A stretch of DNA of 64,000 nt, taken from positions 248,001 to 312,000 of the forward strand of contig JAHLTZ010000025.1 of the NCBI GenBank assembly GCA_025786725.1, in the 5' to 3' direction. Within the stretch, counting starts at the first letter, position 1; every line of letters begins with the position of its first letter. Under the pieces are notes generated by a model that worked only from the letters and a program-made list of their open reading frames with translations, was not told the DNA's origin and did no database searches. Made by a program: the position numbers and the translations under genes. Origin of the DNA: Syncephalis fuscata. Lineage: Eukaryota > Zoopagomycota > Zoopagomycetes > Zoopagales > Piptocephalidaceae. This document shows, one piece after another, positions 36,950-59,849 of the stretch.

Positions 36950-39900
36950 TTATAGTGGCAGTTCTACTTTTCCTACTGGTGGTGGTGTTGTACTATCCAA
37001 ATCAACACTAGATAATGTCAATAATGACGACTTGATGGCATCAATAGCCTTCATCTTATGACTATTGCCATTACTATCTACAATATTATCATCATCATCA
37101 GATGTCTCTGATGGACTAGGTGGTAGCGGTATATCGTGAGGGGATACTTGGTGCTGTAATATCAACAATTCATCCAATGAAGTCGTGATTTTTAGGTTTT
37201 CCACCATTGATACTGAAGTTGTTATTTCAGTAACTTCTTCTTCCCCATCTACTTCTAATTGATCAGTAGACAATGCCACTTCTTCAATTACTGTTACTGG
37301 ATCATCAACTGGCGAATGAGATCGATGGAGTAGAGCTTTAAGTCGAGCTTCCATTTGGTCTACTTCTACTTCAGCCTTCTCAGTATCAGTGTCACTTATA
37401 CCATCATCGATCACCACGGTATTTGTTGGGGGATGGGCATTTGCCAATAAACTAAGCTTTTCCATAAATGATGAAGCAGGTGAAATACGTCCAGTAATCG
37501 GCTCATCAACATCACTTGGTACATCCGAGAATGTAGCATCATCTTCAAATTGATCCACTTTAAGCAAATCCATATTAGATGCACGGATATGAATGATCTT
37601 TTTGTTAACATCATCATCATCATCATCAAATGACAATGCCGGAGATGGTGGTGATATAATAGTACGTGTCATTGTGTAAACATCTGATTCTATAATGTCA
37701 TCTTCATCGTCATCATCTTCATTATCGGTATTGATATCTTCATCATGTTGATCTGATCGTTTAGATGAATAAGCGTTAATTAATTCATCTTCACTATCAG
37801 ATAAAGGAACATATGGATCACTGGAGATACTCATATTTAACAAGTTATTTGATAATGAAAAGCCGTCATTGTCCTCGTCTTCATTCTCGTAGTCATCTTC
37901 TTGTTCGCTGTCTGATTCAGGTAGTCGAGTATGAATAGCTTCTTGTTCAATAGCCAGCATATCTTCATCAGGGAAAGTAGGTGTGGGCATAAGAATAGCT
38001 TGTTCTTTAACAGTTGATATCTCTTCTTTTTCTACTATGATTGTTGTGGCTGCTGTGACAGTCTCTTCTGTTACTTCAATAGTAATATTAGATATCGATT
38101 CAGATGTAGTAGATCTTTCTTCTTCAATGACAATATCTGATGTTGTAATTATTTCTTTTACCGTTGATACTATCTCAGATTCATTAATAGTAGATTCCGA
38201 TAATGATTCTTTATCGTCTTCAATAACCGTAGTTGATGCTACAACTAATTCTTCTAATAAAGATGCAGATTCTTCTTCGATGATATTTTCTGATACTGCA
38301 ATGGCATTCTCTTCAATAACAGTTTCTGATGTTGTAATAACTTCATCAAGTACTGATGTTGATTCAGAATCTTCAATAGCAACTTCTGATACTGCAATAA
38401 CATCTTCAGCAATAGATTCTTCTTCAATAACAACACCTGATGTTGTAATGACTTCATCAAGTACTGATGTTGATTCAGAAGCTTCAATAGCAATGTCTGA
38501 TACTGCAATGGCATCTTCAGCAATAGATTCTTCTTCAATAACAACATCTGATGTTGTAATAAATTCATCAATTACTGATGTTGATTCAGAAGCTTCAATA
38601 ACAACTTCTGATACTGCAATAACATCTTCAGCAATTGATTTTTCTTCAATAACAACACCCGATGTTGTAATGACTTCATCAAGTACTGATGTTGATTCAG
38701 AAGCTTCAATAACAACTTCAGATACTGCAATAACATCTTCAGCAATAGATTCTTCTTCAATAACAACACCTGATGTTGTAATGACTTCATCAAGTACTGA
38801 TGTTGATTCAGAAGCTTCAATAACAACTTCTGATACTGCAATAACATCTTCAGCAATATATTCTTCTTCAATAACAACATCTGATGTTGTAATGACTTCA
38901 TCAAGTACTGATGTTGATTCAGAAGCTTCAATAACAACTTCTGATACTGCAATAACATCTTCAGCAATAGATTCTTCTTCAATAACAACATCTGATGTTG
39001 TAATGACTTCATCAAGTACTGATGTTGATTCAGAAGCTTCAATAGCAACTTCTGATACTGCAATAACATCTTCAGCAATATATTCTTCTTCAATAACAAC
39101 ACCTGATGTTGTAATGACTTCATCAAGTACTGATGTTGATTCAGAAGCTTCAATAACAACTTCTGATACTGCAATAACATCTTCAGCAATAGATTCTTCT
39201 TCAATAACAACATCTGATGTTGTAATGACTTCATCAAGTACTGATGTTGATTCAGAAGCTTCAATAGCAACTTCTGATACTGCAATAACATCTTCAGCAA
39301 TAGATTCTTCTTCAATAACAACACCTGATGTTGTAATGACTTCATCAAGTACTGATGTTGATTCAGAAGCTTCAATAACAACTTCTGATACTGCAATAAC
39401 ATCTTCAGCAATTGATTTTTCTTCAATAACAACACCCGATGTTGTAATGACTTCATCAAGTACTGATTTATCTTCTTCAATAGAGAGTTCCAATGCTGTC
39501 ATCACTTCATCTAGTGCTGCTACAGACTCTTTATCGATAATAGTAGTCGATGATGCGATAGTATCTTCTAATACAAACTCTTCATCAATAGAAATAGTAG
39601 ATGTGGTAGCTACCTCTTCAATCATTATTAATGGTGCTGTTACTTTTAATACTGCATTATCTTCAGATTCAATATGAGCTACACTAGCACCAATAATATC
39701 ATTCAATGTTAGTGTATCGTTCGCATCCTCTTCTTCTTCTTCAATCTCCATTAATTGACTCGATTGAATTGAATGTGAATGAACAATATCGACAGATCTG
39801 TCTAATTTAGTATCCAATTCAGTCTCACGATGAATACCGTAAACATTATTCTCTACTGAAGTAATAGCCGTTGTAACTGCTACTGTAACTACTTCATCAG

Positions 39901-42900
39901 CTACTTTATCAGCTTCCCGTTTAACTTCTTCATATGCTTCATCCATATCAAATAACACATCAGGGAATGATATTAACTTGCGCGGTATCACGTTAGGTGG
40001 TGGTTGCTGTTCTGTATCAGTAGATAAATTTACTTCATCAGTACTATTATTGTTGGATAATGTAATAATAGGCGCATCATCATCATCATCATCGTTATTG
40101 ATTTCTTTATCTGTAATAGCCACTGTGGTAGATACAGCTGATATTGATTTAATCGAATAAGTTGAAACAATGTTGTCACTATCACTGTCACTATCATATT
40201 CATATTCATATTCATCTTCATCTTCATCTTCTTGTTCAACCGTTGATTTGACCGTATCATTTAATATGATAGTGTCAGTTTTCATAACTACTTCTTCTAT
40301 AATATTGGTGACCATAGATTCAGAAATAGTATTTACCTCTTGTTCATTAATAGAACCGCTGATTAAAGGCCCAGACTTGCTAGATTGAGATAGATCACTA
40401 GTTGTGATATCAATAGTGTTATCTACTTGTTCAGTAAATAGAATCTCTCTATTTAATGATTCGGTAATTGTTGCTGTCTCCGTTATATCTACTGTCTGAA
40501 CTGTATCCACTGTCAGTTCACGTTCACAAACATCACTTGTAGTAATATCGATATCACGTAATCCATTTACATCAGTTGAATCTACTGGACTATCATTGGC
40601 ATCTACTTCATTAAGAGCCTTTTCCCTTAGTGTGTCTACAATAGCTTGAACGACTGGTTCAGCCTCTGATAATGAAGTGGCCGCACTATCTGGACTATCT
40701 TGACGAGCTACTATATCGGCAATTTCTGTTGTACTTTCCACATCCAATTCATCTTCTAAATCATCATCCTCTCCTGATTCACTATCAGAGAACCATAAGA
40801 TGGAAGATGCCGCCGATGATGTACGAACAAGTTCGGTAGATGGTGCTGTTGTATCAGGTAATTCATCATCGATATCATTCTCCTGATAGGCATCACCTTC
40901 TGGGTCAAAGTCCATATCTTCAATGTCACTATTGCTATTGCTATGATCAGGTTCGAATATAGTGAATTCCAATCGAGGTACTAATCCAGCACTAGTAGGT
41001 GTGAATTGCATGGCATTGAGTTCTTCCTCTTCGTAATTATTAACCGTAACTGCAATAGATGTATCAGCCATTTGAGTAGTATCGGCATCTTCATCGCCTT
41101 CTTCTTGCTGTTGTTGTTTATTCTGCATAGCTAAACGAGCCCGTTCATAAATACTGAATGTGGGTGATAAAACACTTTCTAATGGATTATGTGATTCTGA
41201 TTCACTTTCAGTCTCTGAGTCATTTTCACCATCATTATTGCTACGTGAATTACCAAATGATCCCATTAATGCGGCCAAGGCAGCTTCTCTGTTCTTTTGG
41301 CGTACTTCATCAGACTCATCATCGGATGAATTAGGTGATGGTTCTTCAAGAGATGATGGATCTTGTAAATGGTTGATGGCCACGGTGATAGAAGCAGCGG
41401 CAATGGCTGTACCAGCTATTACTTGTCCAGAATATGATTTTGGTGTAGTATTGCCATCCTTTGTATCTTCTTCATACTGATAACTATGCTCATTGCTATG
41501 TTCTTCATATTGATAGCTAATAGGGGATATTTCCCGACTAATAGGTTCTTCTGGATCATAATTGATGTCATTTTGGAATGAGTGGGCAGATTCACGACGT
41601 ATATCGGTTGATTCGTCAATAGTGGTCGTTTCAAGGCTCATTTCTTCAATGATACTACGGCTTTCTGGAATACTGGATAGCTGCGAACGTTGAACAGTTT
41701 CCGGTGAACTAAGATCGACATTAGTAAGTGAAATATCGCGTGCTTGTACCACAGGTAGACTAGCTTCAATATCCCGGTTACTATCACTGCTCATGCTTCG
41801 TTTAATGGCTACATCAGTTGTTGTAGTCGTTACTTCTGCTTCCATTTCCATAATACTGCTAGAGCTTACAGTATTAATCATAGCCACCATATCAAGTGAT
41901 TCAGTAGCTTGTGATTCAGTCATTTTAGATATCATTTCTTCGTTGTCTGAATCCCATGAAGTTGATACTGAATGGTTATCGCTATCATCGATGTCGACTG
42001 GCTCTGAACTGAGTAGCTCTTCAGTCAGCATATTAGATTCAGTGAATGAAGCATCATATGGACTACGAGTTGATTGTGTATCTGAATTGATAGAGCTACG
42101 GTCACTCATATGGCTGGCCACTGCTTCTTGAATACGTTTACGAACATTAGGGGCCAGTGTCGATAGATCTTGTGAATCACGATTTAAATTGTACTCGCTT
42201 AATGATACAATTGAATGGCGATGTGTAGGTGAAAAGATAAGTCTAAAGGCGGTGATTAAATCACGTACAAGTCGTTGTGGATGTCGGTCGTGGAAATTGA
42301 CGCGTGTCATATGTTCTGGTCGTAAGAAACTTGGACCCAGTGACATACCAAGTGAAGCTAGATATTCATCATCAGCCGATGTTGATAAGGCCAAACTAGA
42401 TAAATAAAATAGATTAGTTAATAAATAGATTATTAATTAGTAGCTGTTATATTATCATTATTAATTTACTATATTTACTTACTTGTATAAATGGCTTACA
42501 ATTCGATTTAATGTATGGAAGTTGGCTGTAGGCATAGTAGTTAACATACTACGTAATGCAACAAAACGTGCATCAATATTGTCGCCACTCTTGCGATAAA
42601 GTGCCTTTACGGGTTCATATAAATTATAGGTGCACAGGCATTCGGGCAGTTCCATTAAGTATAAACGCAATGCTCCCACAACCGTATTAAGATCAAATTG
42701 TCGTAATTGTTTAAGTGTAACTGGCTGGCCAGTATTAACACTGCCACGTAATCGATGAATAATTGGTAATTGTAAGGGTGCAATCCACATACGCTGTTTA
42801 GTTTCATCAGGTAGTGCGTGGAGCTCCTTTTCAATCAAACTTAAACATTTGGCCACAAATGGCGGAATCTTTGTCTGCGATACACGGGCCTGTTCTTCAA

Positions 42901-47848: not shown

Positions 47849-49111
47849 TGATTATATAAATATTACGCGCTCAATCCAATGGTATGTAAAAGATTACAAT
47901 GTGATTGTAAATATCTATTTGTACAAACAGCCAGAATTATAAGCTATAGTGACAATGATAAGTTATTTACAAACTAAACTTATTGATTCAATTTTATTTA
48001 CATCTCTCTGTTTAACGTTGCTGCTGTTCTGGCCGCATCAGCAACAGCCAACTCTTGATAAATACAGTTCAGCTTAGCATAACTATATTGATTTGCTATA
48101 GGTTAAACCAGTAAACCTTTGAGTTGCCAATTGTTTTCCATTGGTTTCTGCTTTGGCTTGTTCTTCTATATTCCATTTTGCTTGACTTGTCAGAAGTGGC
48201 TTCAGAAATGTGGGCAGCACAGGCCTTGGATGATTACCGGTTGATATGCGACTCATTGACATTATGCACTCGAAATTGGTGATATTTGGCTAAAGCTTCT
48301 ATTGTGTCTAGTCTAGTGTCTGCATATTGTATTTCGTGTAATTTATCTGAGGCAATATAGTTTACAACTGAAAAACCGATGACGAAAATAACATGTTGGA
48401 ATGTCCCATTGCTTAAAATGCCGTGATAAATCATCCTACAAATAGTACTTATTGTATAGTTAATTTCAGGCAATTTGAATTAGCCGCCATTTGAATGATG
48501 GCAGTTGCACAACATGTGGCATGATATGCCTAAATGTGATGCATTTGTAAATTCGAAACAATTGCTACCCTATGACAATAGGCATAGTGTCGAATGAAAT
48601 GTATACATGTACCAATCAGTACACTTTATAATTTAAAAATTACAGCTGATTTATGTATGGCAGTAGAAACCTGTATAAAATACCAGTTTGATACATTAAA
48701 CTTGTTTTGTATTAGTGTTGTGTGCTATTCTGTATGCATGCGGATATCGAAAACCGAGTCATTGAGTGGAAGTGACAGCAAAGACATCATTATCGTTTTA
48801 CAAAACCAAACAATTTACTTGTTTTCACCAAATAGCTAAACCGTGTAACAAAAAATACAGAATGATGCGCATGTCTCTATCGCATATGTACTGCTCGTTG
48901 GAATTTCCGCGTCATCTGTGTAAATGCCGAGAAGATTGAAGTAAAGGCTGGTCAGGTTAAAATCAAGACTAGAAAGTATGATGTCACACCATAAATTTAT
49001 TGGTACACGTACGTTTCAAACCATTATTTGAATTGCTTTATTGGTTCATATTACACATCAATGGTATATCTCGTATACTGCAGCATACTGGCATCTCAGC
49101 ATAGCTGTAAG

Positions 49112-49119
49112 TATAAATA
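49112..49119 (+). promoter_or_regulatory. TATA box of micro-exon gene
   Basis: GTATAAATA, 145 nt upstream of the ATG at 49257. The transcript leader after it is CA/CT-rich. Confidence 0.6.
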
Positions 49120-49256
49120 GCTTACAAAATATACACAACCAACTGCAGTATTATCATCACACTCTACTTCCTACTAAACACACACAACTCTCCACTCTAT
49201 ACCAACCACACTCTACTATTTCTTTTATTTGTTTGTCTTAACAAATCAATATCACC

Positions 49257-52127
49257 ATGAAGCTTTCTATTGCCGTCGTTTGCACCATTGTCGTGGCTCT
49301 TGTGGCCAATACAGCCGTGGTGGATGCTAAACCAGCTTTAGTTCGCCGTGGTATGTTGCAATAACAATAAATATACCATAATATTTTATTTACTAACAGC
49401 ATTTTTAAATAATAATTATAATAGATCGTAAGTTATATTGTATGCTAACTAATTACCCACTGATTATATACCATGTACTGTGTGCGTCAACAAATAAATA
49501 TCATAGCTGGTAGGTTGCATTACATATCAATAGAACATACACTAATTATGCACCATGTACTACATCCATTAACTAATTAACATTAGGTGAATGTAAGTTT
49601 ATTGTATATTAATTGATTACTCACTAATTGCATGTTATGCACTATGTGTATCAACAAATTAACACTAATAGGCCGTAAGTAATATTATATATTGTTAACT
49701 TAGACATTAATTATATACCGTGTATTATGTGTATCAACAATTCAATGCCATAGTTGGTAGGTTGTATTTTGCTTTAACTGATTATGAGCTAATTATATAC
49801 TATGCACCACGTATATCAATAACTTAAACTAATAGTGTGTAAGTTATATTTTACATTAATTGAACATTGATTAATTACATATCGTGTATCGTATATATCA
49901 ATAATTTAATAATAGGTGGTAAGTAGCATTGTATGTTGCTGATTTATAAATTAATTATATATCGTGTATTGTGTATATCAATAACTGGGTGGAATAGTTG
50001 GTAAGTGACATTGCATATTATTTTATTTTATTTTGAAAAGCTTGTGAGCCCCCGCTGCATATAATTAAATAATTTGCGCTGCTTCGCACTATATTTGGAC
50101 TTTTCCAAGCTTTTAACGGATGGAATGCCGCGTTTTTGCGCAAACCTAGTCCATATAGATTTTACACGGGGCCATCTTCTTTTAAATGGTGCTACACAGC
50201 ACTATTCCCTTAAAGTTGGCCCCAATTGCTTTTTCCTCGGCTATTCTAGCCAAAGTCTTGTTTCCAAACCTACTTATTGGGTTCTGGTTTGCAATTTGTT
50301 AACTAGAGAAAACTGGAGAGATTTTTCACTTAAGGATTGATTTAAACCTCAGTTTAAATCCGGAATCTTCAGCTTGGGAAACACTGCCTTACCTACCGGG
50401 CTAGCAACGTTTCCCGTGGAATTGTATATTAGCTGATTATACACTAATTATATCCATGTATTGCATGTGCATTAATAATTTGATATTAACAGAAAGTAAG
50501 TTATATTTTATATTAGTTATTTACTTACTAATCATATTCATGTACTATGTATAAACAAATATTAATAGAATGTAAGTAGCATTATATATTAATTGATTAC
50601 TGGTCAACTATATACCGTGTATTGTCTGTATTAATAATTTACTATTAATAGGCAGTAGGTGATATTGTACATTAATTAAATATGCGCTAATTATGTGTCG
50701 TATGCTGTGTGCATTTATAATTTAATATTAATAGAGAGTAAGTTGTATTGTATATAAATTGACTATACATTAACTATAATATTTACTGGTGGTATTAATT
50801 ATTTGATATTAATAGAGAGTAAGTGGCACTGTATATTAATTGACTATACATTAATAATGCTATTTATTGCTAATATCAATTATTTAATGTTAATAGATTG
50901 TAAGTGATATTGTATATTAATTGGATATACATTAACTATGCTATTTACTGATTGTATTGATTATTTAATATTAATAGGGAGTAAGTGGTGTTGTATATTA
51001 ACTAACTATACATTAACTATACTATTTACTGATTGTATCAATTATTTAATATTAATAGTGGGTAAGTTGTATTGTATATTAATTTACTATACATTAACCA
51101 TGCTATTTACCTATGATATTGCTTATTTAATATTAATAGGTCGTAAGTGATGTTTTATATTAATTAGCTATACATTAACTATGCTATTTACTAATGGTAT
51201 TAATTATTTAATATTAATAGCTGGTAAGTCATATTTTATATTAATCGACTATACATTAAATATGCTATTTACTGGGTGTATTGCTTATTTAATATTAATA
51301 GAACGTAAGCTATATTGTATATTAATTGGCTATACATTAACTATACTATTTACTGATTGTATTGCTTATTTAATATTAATAGCTGGTAAGCTATCTTGTA
51401 TATTAATCGGCTATATATTAACTATGCTATTTACTAATTATATTAATTATTTAATATTAATAGTGGGTAAGTTGTATTGTATATTAATTTACTATACATT
51501 AACCATGCTATTTATTGATTGTACCAATTATTTAATATTACCAGCTTGTAAGTGATGTCTTATATTATTTAATTATACATTAACTATGCTATTTACTGAC
51601 GGTATTGCTTATTTAATATTAATAGGTCGTAAGTGGTATTATATTATCTGATTATACATTAACTATGTTATTTACTGATGGTATTGATTATTTAACATTA
51701 ATAGGTTGTAAGTTGCATGATATATTATCTGATTATACATTAACTATGCTATTTATTGATTGTACCAATTGTTTAATAATAATAGTTGGTAAGTTATATT
51801 GTATATTAATTGGATATACATTAACTATATACTATGTATTGTGTATCAACAACTTAATATTAATAGAATGTAAGCTGTACTGCATATTAATTGATTACTC
51901 ACTAATTATATGTTATTTATTGGTTGCACTAATTATTTAATATAATAGGCGGCGGTAAGTGGTATTTTATATTAATTGGCTATGCATTAATTACATGCTG
52001 TCTATTATGTGTATTAATATATTAATATTAATAGTTCGTAAGTTGTACTGTGTATTAACTGACTTATACATTAACTATACGACATGTAATATCTTTATTT
52101 ATAAATGCAGCCAACCCACAATCATAA
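49257..52127 (+). CDS. Secreted cysteine-rich peptide encoded by 28 micro-exons
   Basis: Exon 1 (49257-49350) encodes a signal peptide (MKLSIAVVCTIVVALVANTA) and ends at a dibasic LVRR, phase 1. Micro-exons follow, given as start then sequence: 49425 ATC, 49507 CTG, 49587 GTGAAT, 49672 GCC, 49754 TTG, 49836 TGT, 49916 GTG, 49998 TTG, 50493 AAA, 50569 AAT, 50652 GCA, 50735 AGA, 50816 AGA, 50897 ATT, 50978 GGA, 51059 TGG, 51140 GTC, 51221 CTG, 51302 AAC, 51383 CTG, 51464 TGG, 51545 CTT, 51626 GTC, 51705 GTT, 51786 TTG, 51867 AAT, 51949 GCGGCG and 52035 TTC. The last exon starts at 52111 and reaches TAA at 52125-52127. Each micro-exon lies between an AG and GTAAGT, GTAAGC or GTAGGT. Joined, they give 66 aa. 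The mature part starts DPGEC and has five Cys spaced C-x2-C-x3-C-x11-C-x3-C. Function is unknown; a secreted effector or defence-like peptide is a guess. The 3' end is uncertain (see findings). Confidence 0.8.
49351..52110 (+). repeat. Array of 29 related phase-1 introns, about 81-bp period
   Basis: Intron lengths are 73-80 nt except intron 9 (492 nt, carrying an insertion). From 50738 to 51704 almost all are exactly 78 nt, so the intron plus one codon repeats every 81 bp. The common pattern is GTAAGT, then TATTGTATATTAATT, TATACATTAACTATGCTATT and finally TTATTTAATATTAATAG. Introns 1-8 are more diverged but keep the same start and end. The units at 51059 and 51464 (405 bp, five units apart) share private variants, showing block duplication inside the array. 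Confidence 0.9.
50035..50425. mobile_element. GC-richer insertion inside intron 9 of the micro-exon gene
   Basis: About 390 bp of clearly different composition interrupts an otherwise normal intron. It starts near GAAAAGCTTGTGAGCCCCCG and ends near CGGGCTAGCAACGTTTCCCG. Flanks ATTGCATATTA (left) and ATTGTATATTA (right) could be a near-perfect target duplication or two copies of the normal intron start. A 9-bp hairpin, GATTTAAAC/GTTTAAATC, lies at 50339-50360. The minus strand contains CAGTGTTTCCC, loosely like hAT-element ends. No transposase is present, so the class is unknown. Confidence 0.45.
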
Positions 52128-54139
52128 AAGCATTAACATTGGTAGTGCAATCGGATCATTATTCCAATACACTTTAGGTATATATTCGGTGAAATGCAAG
52201 ACTATTTGACAACTACGCCGTCCAGTCTATTTATATCAAGTTTTGGCCAATGCTCCGGTTTATCCAGTCTCTAATCAATGGAATCATTATTTTGCCAACA
52301 ACTTTGCATTTAGTTGTTCCTATTCAACTGTGCAAGTTTATAGTAATAAACTTATGGTTCCATCTTAATTATATACAATCAAATTGCTATATCTATAATT
52401 ATATCATGTAAGCTATAAACATAGATTGTTATGGATAGTAGCAAAGCTATCATTATCATATAGCCAAGTAATAGTATGCTGAAATTAGAATAAATACGCT
52501 TTTTAATAAAACACGACAATAAAGCATACGATATTATAAAACAAAATAAATAGACAAAACGAATACGTGAATAGTAATAACAAAACTATACTGTATGCAA
52601 TTAGCCAATAGTAATGAACGAAATGGATCAAGATCTGCTAAAAGAATACAGTTAGCAATGAACTTTTAGCTTTTATTAATATAATTTCTACAATTTACAA
52701 TATTAATGATATAGACGGACATATAGTATATGTATACAGGATAGATATGTACAGCACAATAATAATGATAAATAAATAGTTTAATAACCAATGACACTCA
52801 TCACTCAGTTTCATCTTTAATAAAATGAATATTTAGTTTAAATAGGTGGCTATTATAGCTATTTAACTGCCAAATCACATTAAACAACCAATAGTATGTT
52901 TAATATTGTCGAAAAGTTAGCTTTATTTAGCTAATAAAAGTATCATAAGATTTAATACAAATCAAGTGGTTTAAATGGTTTGTTACAGCACTTTTTTAAG
53001 CTTCTTTCACCATGCTCCATGGCTTTTCTAAATTAGAACATTAGAGCGACTACTACAACATTTAGAAATGGATGTTACAAGTAAATTGTTTTAGTTTATT
53101 AATGACAAATGTCATGTTGACGGTTTTATTTTGCATATCTTCACTCTTGCTTGATACACCAACTAATTAATTTAAGTTGATCAAAGCAATAACACTTTTA
53201 TGTAATTCGGAATTATTTAATTGCTATATCTGATATTCAAAATACTCTAAATCAATCTAATCTTATTTGTTGGTTAGATTTAAAATCTAAAATATTTATT
53301 AATTAAATAATTTTTGTTTGCATTACACTTTATTTATTTTGATAGTTGTTTCATTAGTAGTTTGTGTTTGTTCAATAAAAACGGTTATTTAACATCAACT
53401 ACTGTTTCAACACAATTAGTGCTAATTTCTACATAGCATATTTTTGTATTGTATTTTTTTGAGTTGCATTTGCCGCAAGTATATTATCGAAAGTCTTTTA
53501 ACAAATAAATGCGATTGACATTACTGTTAATATTGCTACAATGAACTAAATTATGTAAATAAGCAAAGTTTTATAATCTAATTCATTTTAATTTATTATC
53601 AAAATTTATACAATTGTAACTATTGTTATAAGTTAAAGCCATTTGATACTAATAAGTATTATTATTAAACTAATATTAAAACATCTAAGTAAGCTACTAT
53701 TTCTATTTCTTTTTCCTTTAGCTACTTGGTCAAAGTTACATAATTTTATTACTAGTGTTATAGCAATGCCACCCTTTTTTTAGCGAATCAAAAGCATACC
53801 AAATTTTGTAATGAGAAATAATTGCATCTATTGAGCTATTATAATTGCTAGTATGTATTAAATAATTAAATACGCATTTAATGCTTTTAACGTTGGATAA
53901 CCATTTATACAGATTTAAAGTGTTATCAATTTTGATGGTTTGGCTAAGTCTAAACAAATAGCCAATTGTTAATATCAAATAAAGCAAGGGGATACACATC
54001 CCTTACATATTTTGCTTAAATGAAATTAAGGAGATGTTTGTATTAAATAGATTAGCTGGCCAAATATGCCAATATTCATTATCTCTTTAAGTTTGCACAA
54101 ATATCTATTTTTTCAATACGACTATATAATTGCTTAAAA
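52128..54139. other. Intergenic, with an open frame just after the micro-exon gene
   Basis: 52128-52368 stays open in one frame apart from a single TGA (52207-52209), described under findings. The rest, about 52370-54139, is AT-rich with no recognised gene or repeat. Confidence 0.5.
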
Positions 54140-57947: not shown

Positions 57948-59075
57948 CTATGTTATTTTGCTTTTTTCTGACTCTAATTGTATCCGACTGATTGCATTTG
58001 TAAAGTCTTCTATTAATCCTGAATTTCTATTATAGTTATTTGAAGGGCCAAGATAATCAGAAAGATCATCCCACTTGTCTACATCTCCAGAACCATAAAG
58101 CTTTTTCGTTATCGCAACTTTTACATCGGCAGGAACAAGACGAAGACTTTCATTTGTGACAAACTCATTTGTTTCACGAATGCTAATAATTCCTTTTTCT
58201 ACTGGAATGGCATTATTGAAGTTGATGAAATATGGTACATATTCGCCAAGTTCATTCTTATCGATGCAAATATCTAGCAATGTCGTTAATATAAACATTA
58301 GTAATAAACATAATACCTGCCTTTAAAGTCCTTATGGGCATACCATCCCAATTTTTTAATAATATATAGACCTAATAGTAACTTAGTATACATCATATAG
58401 ACAATAAAAGCTCGTACCGTCTGCAATCTTCCGCCAGAGAGTTTCTATTTTTTCCAAATCCTTATCACTAATTAAAGTTAAAATAATGTATTTTATGTAA
58501 AATTAATATTGTTCGAGTTCAACATACCTGGTGAATACTTTAGTAAATTGTTTATATGTCTTTGCACATTGGCCTGGTAAGACATAGCATTTATTTCCAG
58601 AAAATGTGATAATTTCTTTAGGTATGGCAATCAAAGAGCTATATTTTTCTAATAATTTGGAATTTTCCTTTAAAGACTGTTGATAATGATATTTGTTAGT
58701 TTTTGCATATCTATGTTATGCAAAACTTGCCTGATATACTTTAAACGCGCTATTTTCTACAATTGTATCCGATTTACATGCAAGTGTAATAGGCCCTTTA
58801 TTCTGTGTTCCTTTGATATAATATACGCCATTGACTTTGTATGGCGTGTTGGTAAACTTGATATTTTTTTTGATAAACGGGCTATCTGTGTTTTTATTTT
58901 TCTGGCCCATAAAGGCTACATGAATATATGTTAGTAAAATAAAATGAATAACATGGAGTAGATACTTGCTAATGGTTTTGAATGGATTTATAATGTTAGT
59001 GGGCGTGGCATAAGTAGCTGATACTAGCATGCATGCAGTAGCAGCGATAGCGAGAATGGATTTTATCGTGACCAT
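57948..59075 (-). CDS. Secreted kinase-like protein with partly retained catalytic loop (306 aa)
   Basis: Exons 58731-59075, 58528-58676, 58418-58467, 58321-58371 and 57948-58273 join in phase. The signal peptide is MVTIKSILAIAATACMLVSA. A possible ATP-lysine strand (GPITLACKSD) is followed by LYIIKKLGWYAHKDFKGDIC with IDKN. This parallels the kinase HRDLKPxN-ILxD loop: Asp and Lys kept, Asn replaced by Asp. The DFG position reads INF. It is probably related to the secreted pseudokinase at 5099-6513. Two introns have GC donors (58730 and 58320). Exon 1 contains a 50-nt stretch, GTATCT...TACTAAC...ATGTAG, that looks like an intron but is open in frame. If spliced, a further frame change would be needed. 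The C-terminal 110 residues are not recognisably kinase. Confidence 0.68.
58274..58320 (-). other. GC-AG intron (GCAGGT donor) in second secreted kinase-like gene
   Basis: 47 nt between AAAG|GCAGGT and TTGCTAG|AT. Removal joins HKDFKG to DICIDKN in phase 1. Confidence 0.75.
58677..58730 (-). other. GC-AG intron (GCAAGT donor) in second secreted kinase-like gene
   Basis: 54 nt between CAG|GCAAGT and TCAACAG|TCT, phase 0. Without removal the frame stops four codons later. Confidence 0.8.
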
Positions 59076-59849
59076 GTTTATGTCAAGGTTCAGTCGTCAA
59101 ATAGAAGATGGTGCTTTCTATAAGATTAGTACGTAAAAAAAGTAATGTGATAGTTAGACAAATGAACATTTTAAAATGCAGATATTTATAGTAAATATAT
59201 CATGCAATGATCTTTGTATTTACTATGAGATTGGACAAGTACGAAATACATATTTCTGTGTAAAAAATGTGGAAGAGCACATGGAAATATACCGTAAACA
59301 ACTAATCTATACATCTCAATACAGCTACTGAAACTACAAATGTTTTAAAATAGCATTCTCGTTTTTATTTGTATATATTGAGTGATAAAACAAGTAAAAC
59401 AGCGACTCACTATAGTAATACAGGTGCGTTTGGTTTTATTCTTCAAGCGCCGATATTCGAAGCAAATTGCAAATTTGTTTGTAAACTCCGTAAATCAAAA
59501 TTACTACTTTTGTTAATACTAATTGGAACTCAGAAATGTCATAATTTAAACACAGATTCTAGCAATATACATTGTAATTAATCAACAATTTAATGGTTGT
59601 TTAGAACATATAAATAGTCACATAAACTGATATGCTGCGTTAATGATATATGATACAAACTATTTAAACTTTATTATTAGTTATGTTGACTATATAATAA
59701 TTTAATTAGCATTAATAAAATTCAAAAGTTTTTAGTTTATTAGCAAACCAATATTCGTTTACTTGAATTAAGCGGAATTGGCATAATGCTGCTTTAATAA
59801 ATAGCAGTAAAGACAGATGACGGTTTATTATTAAAAATTATAGGTTTAA
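59076..59849. other. Intergenic, promoter of secreted kinase-like gene
   Basis: This 774-bp AT-rich gap contains the TATA box at 59183-59190. A 70-codon plus-strand frame at 59369-59581 has no domain or signal peptide, and I do not call it. Confidence 0.55.
59183..59190 (-). promoter_or_regulatory. TATA box of second secreted kinase-like gene
   Basis: TATAAATA on the minus strand, about 108 nt upstream of the ATG at 59075. Confidence 0.5.

Follow-up and report, generated by a model that had tools for sequence, protein, structure and literature searches.

Putative codon-sized exons in a family of predicted secreted cysteine-rich peptides of Syncephalis fuscata

The described systems closest to the locus reported here are genes with many small exons. 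The micro-exon genes (MEGs) of schistosomes comprise 35 genes with exons of 6-81 base pairs (bp), mostly 15 bp (from 3 bp according to the abstract), and introns of 0.1-5 kb (PMC10526429). Aphid bicycle genes have about 17 exons on average, and nearly all internal exons begin at codon position 2 (PMC9168663). Splicing of isolated exons of 3 and 1 nucleotides (nt) is described for Ncam, troponin T, homothorax and plant APC11 (PMC7392893, PMC8831610 and PMC8042270), and functional micro-exons are called new for filamentous fungi in a 2024 paper (PMC11121469). Here, a 64,000-nt stretch of the genome of Syncephalis fuscata was analyzed (assembly GCA_025786725.1, contig JAHLTZ010000025.1, positions 248,001 to 312,000, forward strand), which is termed the window and in which all coordinates are given. 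Syncephalis is a member of the Zoopagales and is described as mycoparasitic in PMC6784888. With a probability of about 0.92, positions 49257-52350 are read as a member of a large S. fuscata family of secreted cysteine-rich peptides, the mature part of which would be encoded by spliced codon-sized exons.

Array structure, reading frame and uninterrupted paralogs

The window gene, as read here, consists of exon 1, 28 micro-exons and a last exon, which together give a frame of 66 residues (201 coding nucleotides including the stop codon) with the product MKLSIAVVCTIVVALVANTAVVDAKPALVRR followed by DPGECLVCVEKCKKNWMGPEPVACRFECGVPNPQS. The signal peptide was judged by eye; the mature part comprises 35 residues. 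The micro-exons (26 of 3 nt, two of 6 nt) span positions 49425-52037 and are separated by introns of 73-80 nt, save one of 492 nt (50001-50492) holding a repeated element. All micro-exon junctions are in phase 1, and donors and acceptors are nearly identical from unit to unit. When the structure was derived anew, the coordinates, number, sizes and phase of the 28 micro-exons in the original prediction proved correct to the base. The cysteine spacing C-x2-C-x3-C-x11-C-x3-C, the stop-free frame, a stop after five residues of the last exon and the G/C content of the micro-exons (42 of 90) were all reproduced, and the TACTAAC motif of intron 1 was located (Table 1).

The size of three nucleotides recurs in the window and genome-wide. 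AG-N(k)-GTAAGT/C or GTAGGT with k=3 was found at 26 places inside the array and nowhere else on the plus strand of the window; a looser pattern added two places on this strand, each with GTAAGA, and gave nothing on the minus strand. In the genome as a whole, TATTAATAG-N(k)-GTAAGT occurred 7, 1519 and 1 times for k=2, 3 and 4, and the reversed-pattern control 0, 0 and 1 times. An earlier genome pattern search with one long motif had given no match. In 30 sources including the window, some of which overlap or are near-copies, k=3 was counted 374 times, k=6 26 times, and any other k from 0 to 9 at most four times. A mirrored-acceptor control in these sources gave 7 (k=3), 5 (k=6), 31 (k=0) and 99 (k=27) and is not flat because the DNA is repetitive. 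Locus L069 holds ten units of 3 or 6 nt, under a pattern search that allowed these two exon sizes only, and its introns resemble those of the window at 54.6% identity (shuffled 51.2%; within the window 68.8%). As L069 keeps the exon sizes between introns little like the window's, the codon-sized exons are more than a repeat artefact.

Frame and order were analyzed with 31 unit runs taken without a frame rule from 16/17 sources, the exon order being shuffled within runs 2000 times; L001/L020 and L048/L051 are near-copies and inflate the pooled figures somewhat. The 287 phase-1 codons of the runs included 1 stop, where shuffled orders had 12.9 (minimum 4), and 43 cysteines, where shuffled orders had 26.6 (maximum 38); neither value was reached in 2000 shuffles. 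Phase-1 codons span the junctions, and this result therefore depends on neighbouring micro-exons being joined in order. Phase 2 gave 22 stops and 6 cysteines. Phase 0 gave no stop and 3 cysteines in 318 codons, with 4.9 stop triplets expected from base composition, and is a phase that order shuffling cannot test. When the exons of the window gene by itself were shuffled in order 20,000 times, 0.48% of the orders combined no stop with at least five cysteines; a stop-free order was not rare (16%), and the cysteine pattern, picked after being seen, appeared in none. An open phase-1 frame was also found in 62 of 105 array introns of 78 nt (12 loci), against 11.5 in shuffles. This was set aside as evidence, since the copies have a repeat consensus in common, from which the openness is probably inherited, and since the other frames are closed by the splice motifs.

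The strongest evidence for the predicted micro-exons comes from uninterrupted paralogs. In 13 fetched loci, one open frame encodes both the signal peptide known from the window gene and a mature part of 33-43 residues that is rich in cysteines; in most of them the cysteines are arranged as C-x2/3-C-x3-C, followed further on by C-x3-C. The 3' flank of the window gene aligns to every one of these loci. L053 and L055-L059 were selected via P0001, L061 and L062 via the spliced window peptide, and L042, L046, L047, L050 and L052 by exon 1 alone; among the 13 there are several close copies. In tblastn searches, C35:122910 scored 39.6 bits when the query was only exon 1 and 56.3 when it was the spliced peptide, and addition of the micro-exon part raised the score from 42.2 to 52.2 bits at C57:90394 and from 43.8 to 52.1 at C290:5960; at the window's own exon 1 there was no rise (49.2 to 48.4). 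The window peptide scored a mean of 35.5 against the 13 intronless mature parts, and exon-order shuffles 18.7 (standard deviation 2.7). None of 1000 exon-order shuffles matched this mean, and one of 1000 the best single score. When the two loci found by the spliced peptide were left out, the remaining 11 gave a mean of 34.3. This value was not attained in 1000 exon-order shuffles, in 300 shuffles having five cysteines and no stop, or in 1000 shuffles of the residues. Judged by these scores, the resemblance of the window peptide to the intronless paralogs is real and, gene by gene, modest.

The gene boundaries are consistent with this. From 52113 on, the window matches L046 and L047 through the stop region and the 3' untranslated region (UTR), the match beginning next to the start of the last exon. 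L046 ends with GCT AAC CCA TAA, and the last exon of the array gene L048 reads CT AAT CCA TAA after CAG, in agreement with the last acceptor and phase 1. The peptide DARYDCLEQCVKRKNCGRPFRFICEYNCNKECQANP of L048/L051 is close in layout to the uninterrupted L046 peptide DYNNCMFECRMGCSYPDYGMICKTVCDRECRRANP. The central claim of the original prediction, a mature peptide encoded by exons of 3 and 6 nt, is thus borne out by genes that encode a like peptide without interruption and agree with it in phase and at the boundaries of exon 1 and the last exon; at gene level this interpretation is very likely correct.

Twelve complete loci, defined by exon 1 and the conserved last acceptor, were analyzed; eight splice-model settings were run, with GCAAG as the only GC donor form allowed. 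Three settings recovered all 28 window exons. The setting without a frame or stop rule gave 351 internal exons in the 12 loci: 323 of 3 nt, 22 of 6 nt, two of 10 nt, and one each of 2, 4, 55 and 57 nt. Both 10-nt exons lie in L038 and come down to 3 nt when a weak GTAATT is taken as the donor. Some exons are followed by GC donors. An intact frame over 26-49 internal exons was obtained in 9/12 loci under at least one model; the window gene, L036, L039, L040 and L041 are open in both the no-frame-rule and the short-exon settings. The longest copy, L038, was read with 49 internal exons, all of 3 nt, in the short-exon-favouring setting. Weaker units were skipped by models trained on the commonest ones, the 404-nt insert of the window array was taken as exon under a strong penalty on long introns, and the strong exon-length penalty of the short-exon setting misplaced one L037 acceptor and resolved L038. 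Among the array introns, those longer than 105 nt being left out, 352 of 354 measure 68-82 nt. Of the 354, 299 contain CTRAY motifs, with clusters at distances of 27, 45 and 54-56 nt to the intron 3' end; 44 occurrences, just 4 nt away from that end, cannot serve.

Divergence, proposed splicing and alternative explanations

In four of five pairs of loci, divergence is 3-4 times higher in micro-exons than in introns: 27.7% against 6.6% in L035/L036, 46.4% against 11.7% in L036/L037, 46.1% against 10.5% in L035/L037, and 46.9% against 14% in L040/L037. In these four pairs, donor hexamers differ by 1.7-3.7% and acceptor positions by 0. Three further pairs showed 40/72, 54/75 and 39/72 differing exon bases, with introns at 16.6, 27.1 and 21.5%. 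In five related pairs pooled, triplet positions 1-3 (codon positions 2, 3 and 1) differ by 0.49, 0.39 and 0.59, the lowest value being that of the wobble position; intron positions within 40 nt differ by at most 0.34, and at -4 to -1 and +1 to +3 around the exon the pairs are identical. We read this pattern as selection on the peptide together with homogenisation of the introns; a local mutation process is the alternative. Part of the difference of L035, a locus that is not open, may be due to decay. Where L035 and L036 differ by blocks of units gained, lost or exchanged, the introns differ too. Blocks of two units seem to have been duplicated in L037, to judge from the codon series CAA ACC CAA ACC CAA and introns with up to 96.3% identity. 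Between L035 and L036, the triplets of units 29 and 30 are replaced, with 0 or 1 mismatch in the adjoining introns; selection or a local process could explain this.

Several results weigh against the interpretation given above. The window peptide scored a weaker mean of 29.2 against the five intronless loci chosen by exon 1 alone, a value reached by 4/1000 exon-order shuffles, 18/300 shuffles with no stop and five cysteines, and 17/1000 residue shuffles. L066 (short frame, mature part without cysteines) and the public protein P0004 are uninterrupted yet not cysteine-rich. None of the 15 public gene models seen contains the micro-exon peptides as read here, and model P0002 runs on into intron-like sequence. 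In five splice-model settings the first donor and last acceptor had been set manually, and the outcome depends on the settings: two skipped two window exons, two took another last acceptor, and one exonised the insert. L037 is open in the no-frame-rule setting only, L038 in the short-exon setting only, and L048 and L051 once one acceptor is picked by eye. Three of the 12 complete loci are not open under the model, L035 (2-nt exon), L045 (4-nt exon) and L044 (in-frame stop); they are probably dead, or spliced otherwise. In the near-identical pair L048/L051, exons differ by 1.0% and introns by 3.1%.

In the proposed explanation, exon 1 would code for a signal peptide and, after it, a short pro-part whose terminal Arg-Arg is probably a Kex2 site. 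The mature part, with 35 residues in the window gene and 49 in the longest copy, would be encoded wholly by tandem cassettes in phase 1 throughout, each made up of a codon-sized exon and the intron before it, which measures about 78 nt and has a GTAAGT donor of near-perfect form and an acceptor of the TAATAG type. These donors, acceptors and intron lengths point to removal of each intron by the ordinary spliceosome through intron definition. Simultaneous commitment of the introns on either side of a 3-nt exon is hardly feasible. Neighbouring introns would not be handled at the same moment, and removal would be stepwise or alternate. The mutual exclusion of such neighbours is the part of the originally predicted sequential splicing that stands; a strict sequence was too strong a claim, since alternate introns could be committed together and removed in parallel. 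In this weaker form the prediction is plausible. Yield over 29 splicing steps would be an issue, and skipped units would keep the frame and give shorter peptides. The product would be secreted, and its function is probably interaction with the host fungus. Other family members encode the same peptide scaffold without introns. The arrays evolve by gain, loss and exchange of whole cassettes with the frame kept, the codons changing much faster than the introns and the acceptors remaining unchanged.

A tentative extension, which we consider possible but hold with less than even confidence, is that the array acts as a peptide-editing device. Duplication, deletion or exchange of a unit (intron plus codon) would change one residue and keep the frame, the intron repeats would serve as recombination handles, and unit skipping would yield an in-frame peptide library per gene. 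The intronless relatives would be copies mediated by complementary DNA (cDNA) that freeze a successful peptide, or ancestors of the arrays. Plain retrocopies are not supported as the source of the intronless genes, as for several of them homology to the 3' side of the window gene extends beyond AATAAA; cDNA-mediated replacement or intron gain remain as origins of the two gene forms. A tree of exon 1 and 3' UTR (23 rows; L040 and L041 were dropped, as the UTR motif was not found there) has four label changes between array and intronless genes (bootstrap 3-5; shuffled mean 7.7-7.8) and does not settle their direction. With the root at the midpoint, all 10 array genes and 5 intronless ones form a supported set, and eight intronless rows lie outside it.

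Among the rival explanations, the likeliest is that the micro-exons are spliced mostly incompletely and that a mixture of in-frame peptides arising from single-codon skipping is the functional product. All window exons measure 3 or 6 nt, so that any skip keeps the frame, and the nearly uniform donors and acceptors agree with it; the cysteine content and C-x3-C motifs, which are like those of the intronless paralogs, suggest that the full product matters, and this explanation is considered unlikely. It is very improbable that the arrays are decaying relics and the intronless members the working genes. The loci that are not open and the long matches to the repeated element, several of them inside arrays, would fit such relics, whereas the nine loci open under at least one model, the bases without differences around the exons of five related pairs and the intact cysteine scaffolds argue against decay. 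Least probable of all is a non-coding minisatellite in a single 2.76-kb intron, with exon 1 joined straight to the last exon and AG-NNN-GTAAGT as part of the repeat: the period of 81 nt and the public models without micro-exon peptides are in line with it, but three bases vary between nearly fixed flanks, phase 1 holds fewer stops and more cysteines than shuffled exon orders do, the peptide obtained by joining is similar to those of uninterrupted paralogs, and in L069 exons of 3 and 6 nt persist between introns no longer alike.

The gene family and the features of the window

Protein matches were all from S. fuscata (4/4 and 15/15 in two protein-collection searches). The exon-1 peptide gave 150 scored matches in the genome, all with E < 4e-7, from 333 first-look candidates. 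Paired units TAGNNNGTAAGT at a spacing of 60-90 were found 1078 and 1507 times on the two strands, and the reversed pattern not at all. With an average of 16.8 paired units in the 12 complete loci, this corresponds to about 154 gene equivalents genome-wide, a rough figure in which near-identical contigs may be counted twice. Contig C158 differs from the window at 3/1170 positions from the ATG and at 12/1400 upstream. Neither the large family nor its intronless members are visible from the letters of the window alone without tools. No Pfam family was found for four proteins, and a PDB sequence search with P0001 gave no match. An AlphaFold model of P0001, made without an alignment, was too weak to be used (predicted local distance difference test score, pLDDT, 66).

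In the public models P0002 and P0010, exon 1 appears to continue into sequence like that of array introns (KLYC.., KLYCAL..). Some annotated proteins of the family, those of this type, are probably wrong, and the public gene models of the S. fuscata genome seem to miss much of a large secreted family. L063 holds the start of an array, and L065 is without one; no start was found in L064, L068 and L070 under the start rule used. L067 seems, by eye, to combine an ordinary exon with later micro-exons. Micro-exon-like units were also seen on contig C2, at about 268002-276280, 520293-522464 and 537392-539571, away from the 150 scored signal-peptide matches (among the places listed), hinting at further subfamilies.

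The features of the window gene are collected in Table 1. The 404-nt element has 41 genome matches longer than 300 nt, the window's own included, several of which lie inside arrays. It was also seen in introns of L040, L041, L044 and L048 and on other contigs, and seems to favour or tolerate introns of the micro-exon family. An Rfam search of window positions 48000-54000 gave no match. The neighbouring genes are ordinary: eight open frames were scanned, with PPR, CLU, PEX11, RhoGAP/DEP, PDZ and weak methyltransferase matches and two frames without a family. On the minus strand, positions 36950-42436 hold an open frame of 1828 residues, rich in Ser/Thr/Asp/Glu, with a tandem repeat near SVLDEVITTSGVVIEEESIAEDVIAVSEVVIEASEST and a partly open opposite strand, and positions 58716-59096 the start of another small protein with a signal-peptide-like N-terminus.

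Table 1. Features of the predicted micro-exon gene (window coordinates)
Feature	Position	Strand	Remark
TATAAATA, TATA-box-like	49112..49119	+	about 145 nt upstream of ATG
Exon 1: predicted signal peptide, then KPALVRR	49257..49350	+	ends 1 nt into codon after Arg-Arg (phase 1); uninterrupted paralogs continue in frame from same point
TACTAAC in intron 1, branch-site-like	49391..49397	+	
Micro-exon 1 ATC	49425..49427	+	
Micro-exon 2 CTG	49507..49509	+	
Micro-exon 3 GTGAAT	49587..49592	+	6 nt; third unit also 6 nt in 9/11 other complete loci
Micro-exon 4 GCC	49672..49674	+	
Micro-exon 5 TTG	49754..49756	+	
Micro-exon 6 TGT	49836..49838	+	
Micro-exon 7 GTG	49916..49918	+	
Micro-exon 8 TTG	49998..50000	+	
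Repeated element, about 404 nt	50022..50425	+	inside 492-nt intron; genome matches
Micro-exon 9 AAA	50493..50495	+	
Micro-exon 10 AAT	50569..50571	+	
Tandem repeat, period 81 (78-nt intron + 3-nt exon)	50627..52078	+	17.8 copies
Micro-exon 11 GCA	50652..50654	+	
Micro-exon 12 AGA	50735..50737	+	
Micro-exon 13 AGA	50816..50818	+	
Micro-exon 14 ATT	50897..50899	+	
Micro-exon 15 GGA	50978..50980	+	
Micro-exon 16 TGG	51059..51061	+	
Micro-exon 17 GTC	51140..51142	+	
Micro-exon 18 CTG	51221..51223	+	
Micro-exon 19 AAC	51302..51304	+	
Micro-exon 20 CTG	51383..51385	+	
Micro-exon 21 TGG	51464..51466	+	
Micro-exon 22 CTT	51545..51547	+	
Micro-exon 23 GTC	51626..51628	+	
Micro-exon 24 GTT	51705..51707	+	
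Micro-exon 25 TTG	51786..51788	+	
Micro-exon 26 AAT	51867..51869	+	
Micro-exon 27 GCGGCG	51949..51954	+	6 nt
Micro-exon 28 TTC	52035..52037	+	
Last exon with stop	52111..52127	+	acceptor region TTTATTTATAAATGCAG recurs in paralogs; homologous to 3' end of intronless L046/L047
3' untranslated region	52128..52350	+	AATAAA at 52345-52350; homologous to UTR of intronless paralogs

Comparison with known systems

No description of single-codon exon runs or of this S. fuscata family was found in the literature searched, which did not include bioRxiv or most subscription papers, and the main texts of two genome papers naming Syncephalis (PMC6784888, PMC10386755) do not mention introns or exons. If the genes are spliced as proposed, they offer a natural system for testing how the spliceosome handles neighbouring sites three bases apart. 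The coexistence of intron-bearing and intronless forms would allow a test of how introns multiply or vanish within a family, and the arrays would allow a study of how a mycoparasite diversifies secreted peptides.

The likening to schistosome MEGs and aphid bicycle genes made in the original prediction is a fair one. Bicycle exons are longer, and their introns are not known to form a tandem repeat with the codon. Introner-like elements are scattered over unrelated genes. The MEGs of Schistosoma likewise encode secreted proteins, have a signal peptide followed by many small exons with sizes mostly a multiple of three, and are hard for automatic annotation; unlike them, the exons here are nearly all of 3 nt, the introns of about 78 nt stand in tandem, and intronless members exist (PMC10526429). 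No homology to schistosome MEGs was found (15 protein-collection matches, all S. fuscata; no Pfam family for four proteins). The bicycle genes share with the present family a large, fast-evolving set of putative effectors with small exons starting at codon position 2 (PMC9168663); their CYC motif was found in 0/17 peptides read here. The fungal introner-like elements described in PMC4457414 resemble the array introns as many similar introns in one fungal genome, and differ in that the introns here stand in tandem within one family, the signal-peptide family examined.

The isolated exons of 3 and 1 nt are single cases in ordinary genes and not runs of 26-49, and the plant neighbouring pair measures 5 and 12 nt. 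Zero-nucleotide recursive splicing shares the stepwise removal and the adjoining acceptor and donor; there, very long introns are removed with zero nucleotides retained, whereas here a codon would be kept at each step between short introns (PMC13149111). In the arrays, AG is not directly followed by GT, three bases lying between. With up to 49 successive one-codon exons, splicing as proposed would set a new limit of gene division, an extreme of gene splitting beyond anything described in the searchable literature.

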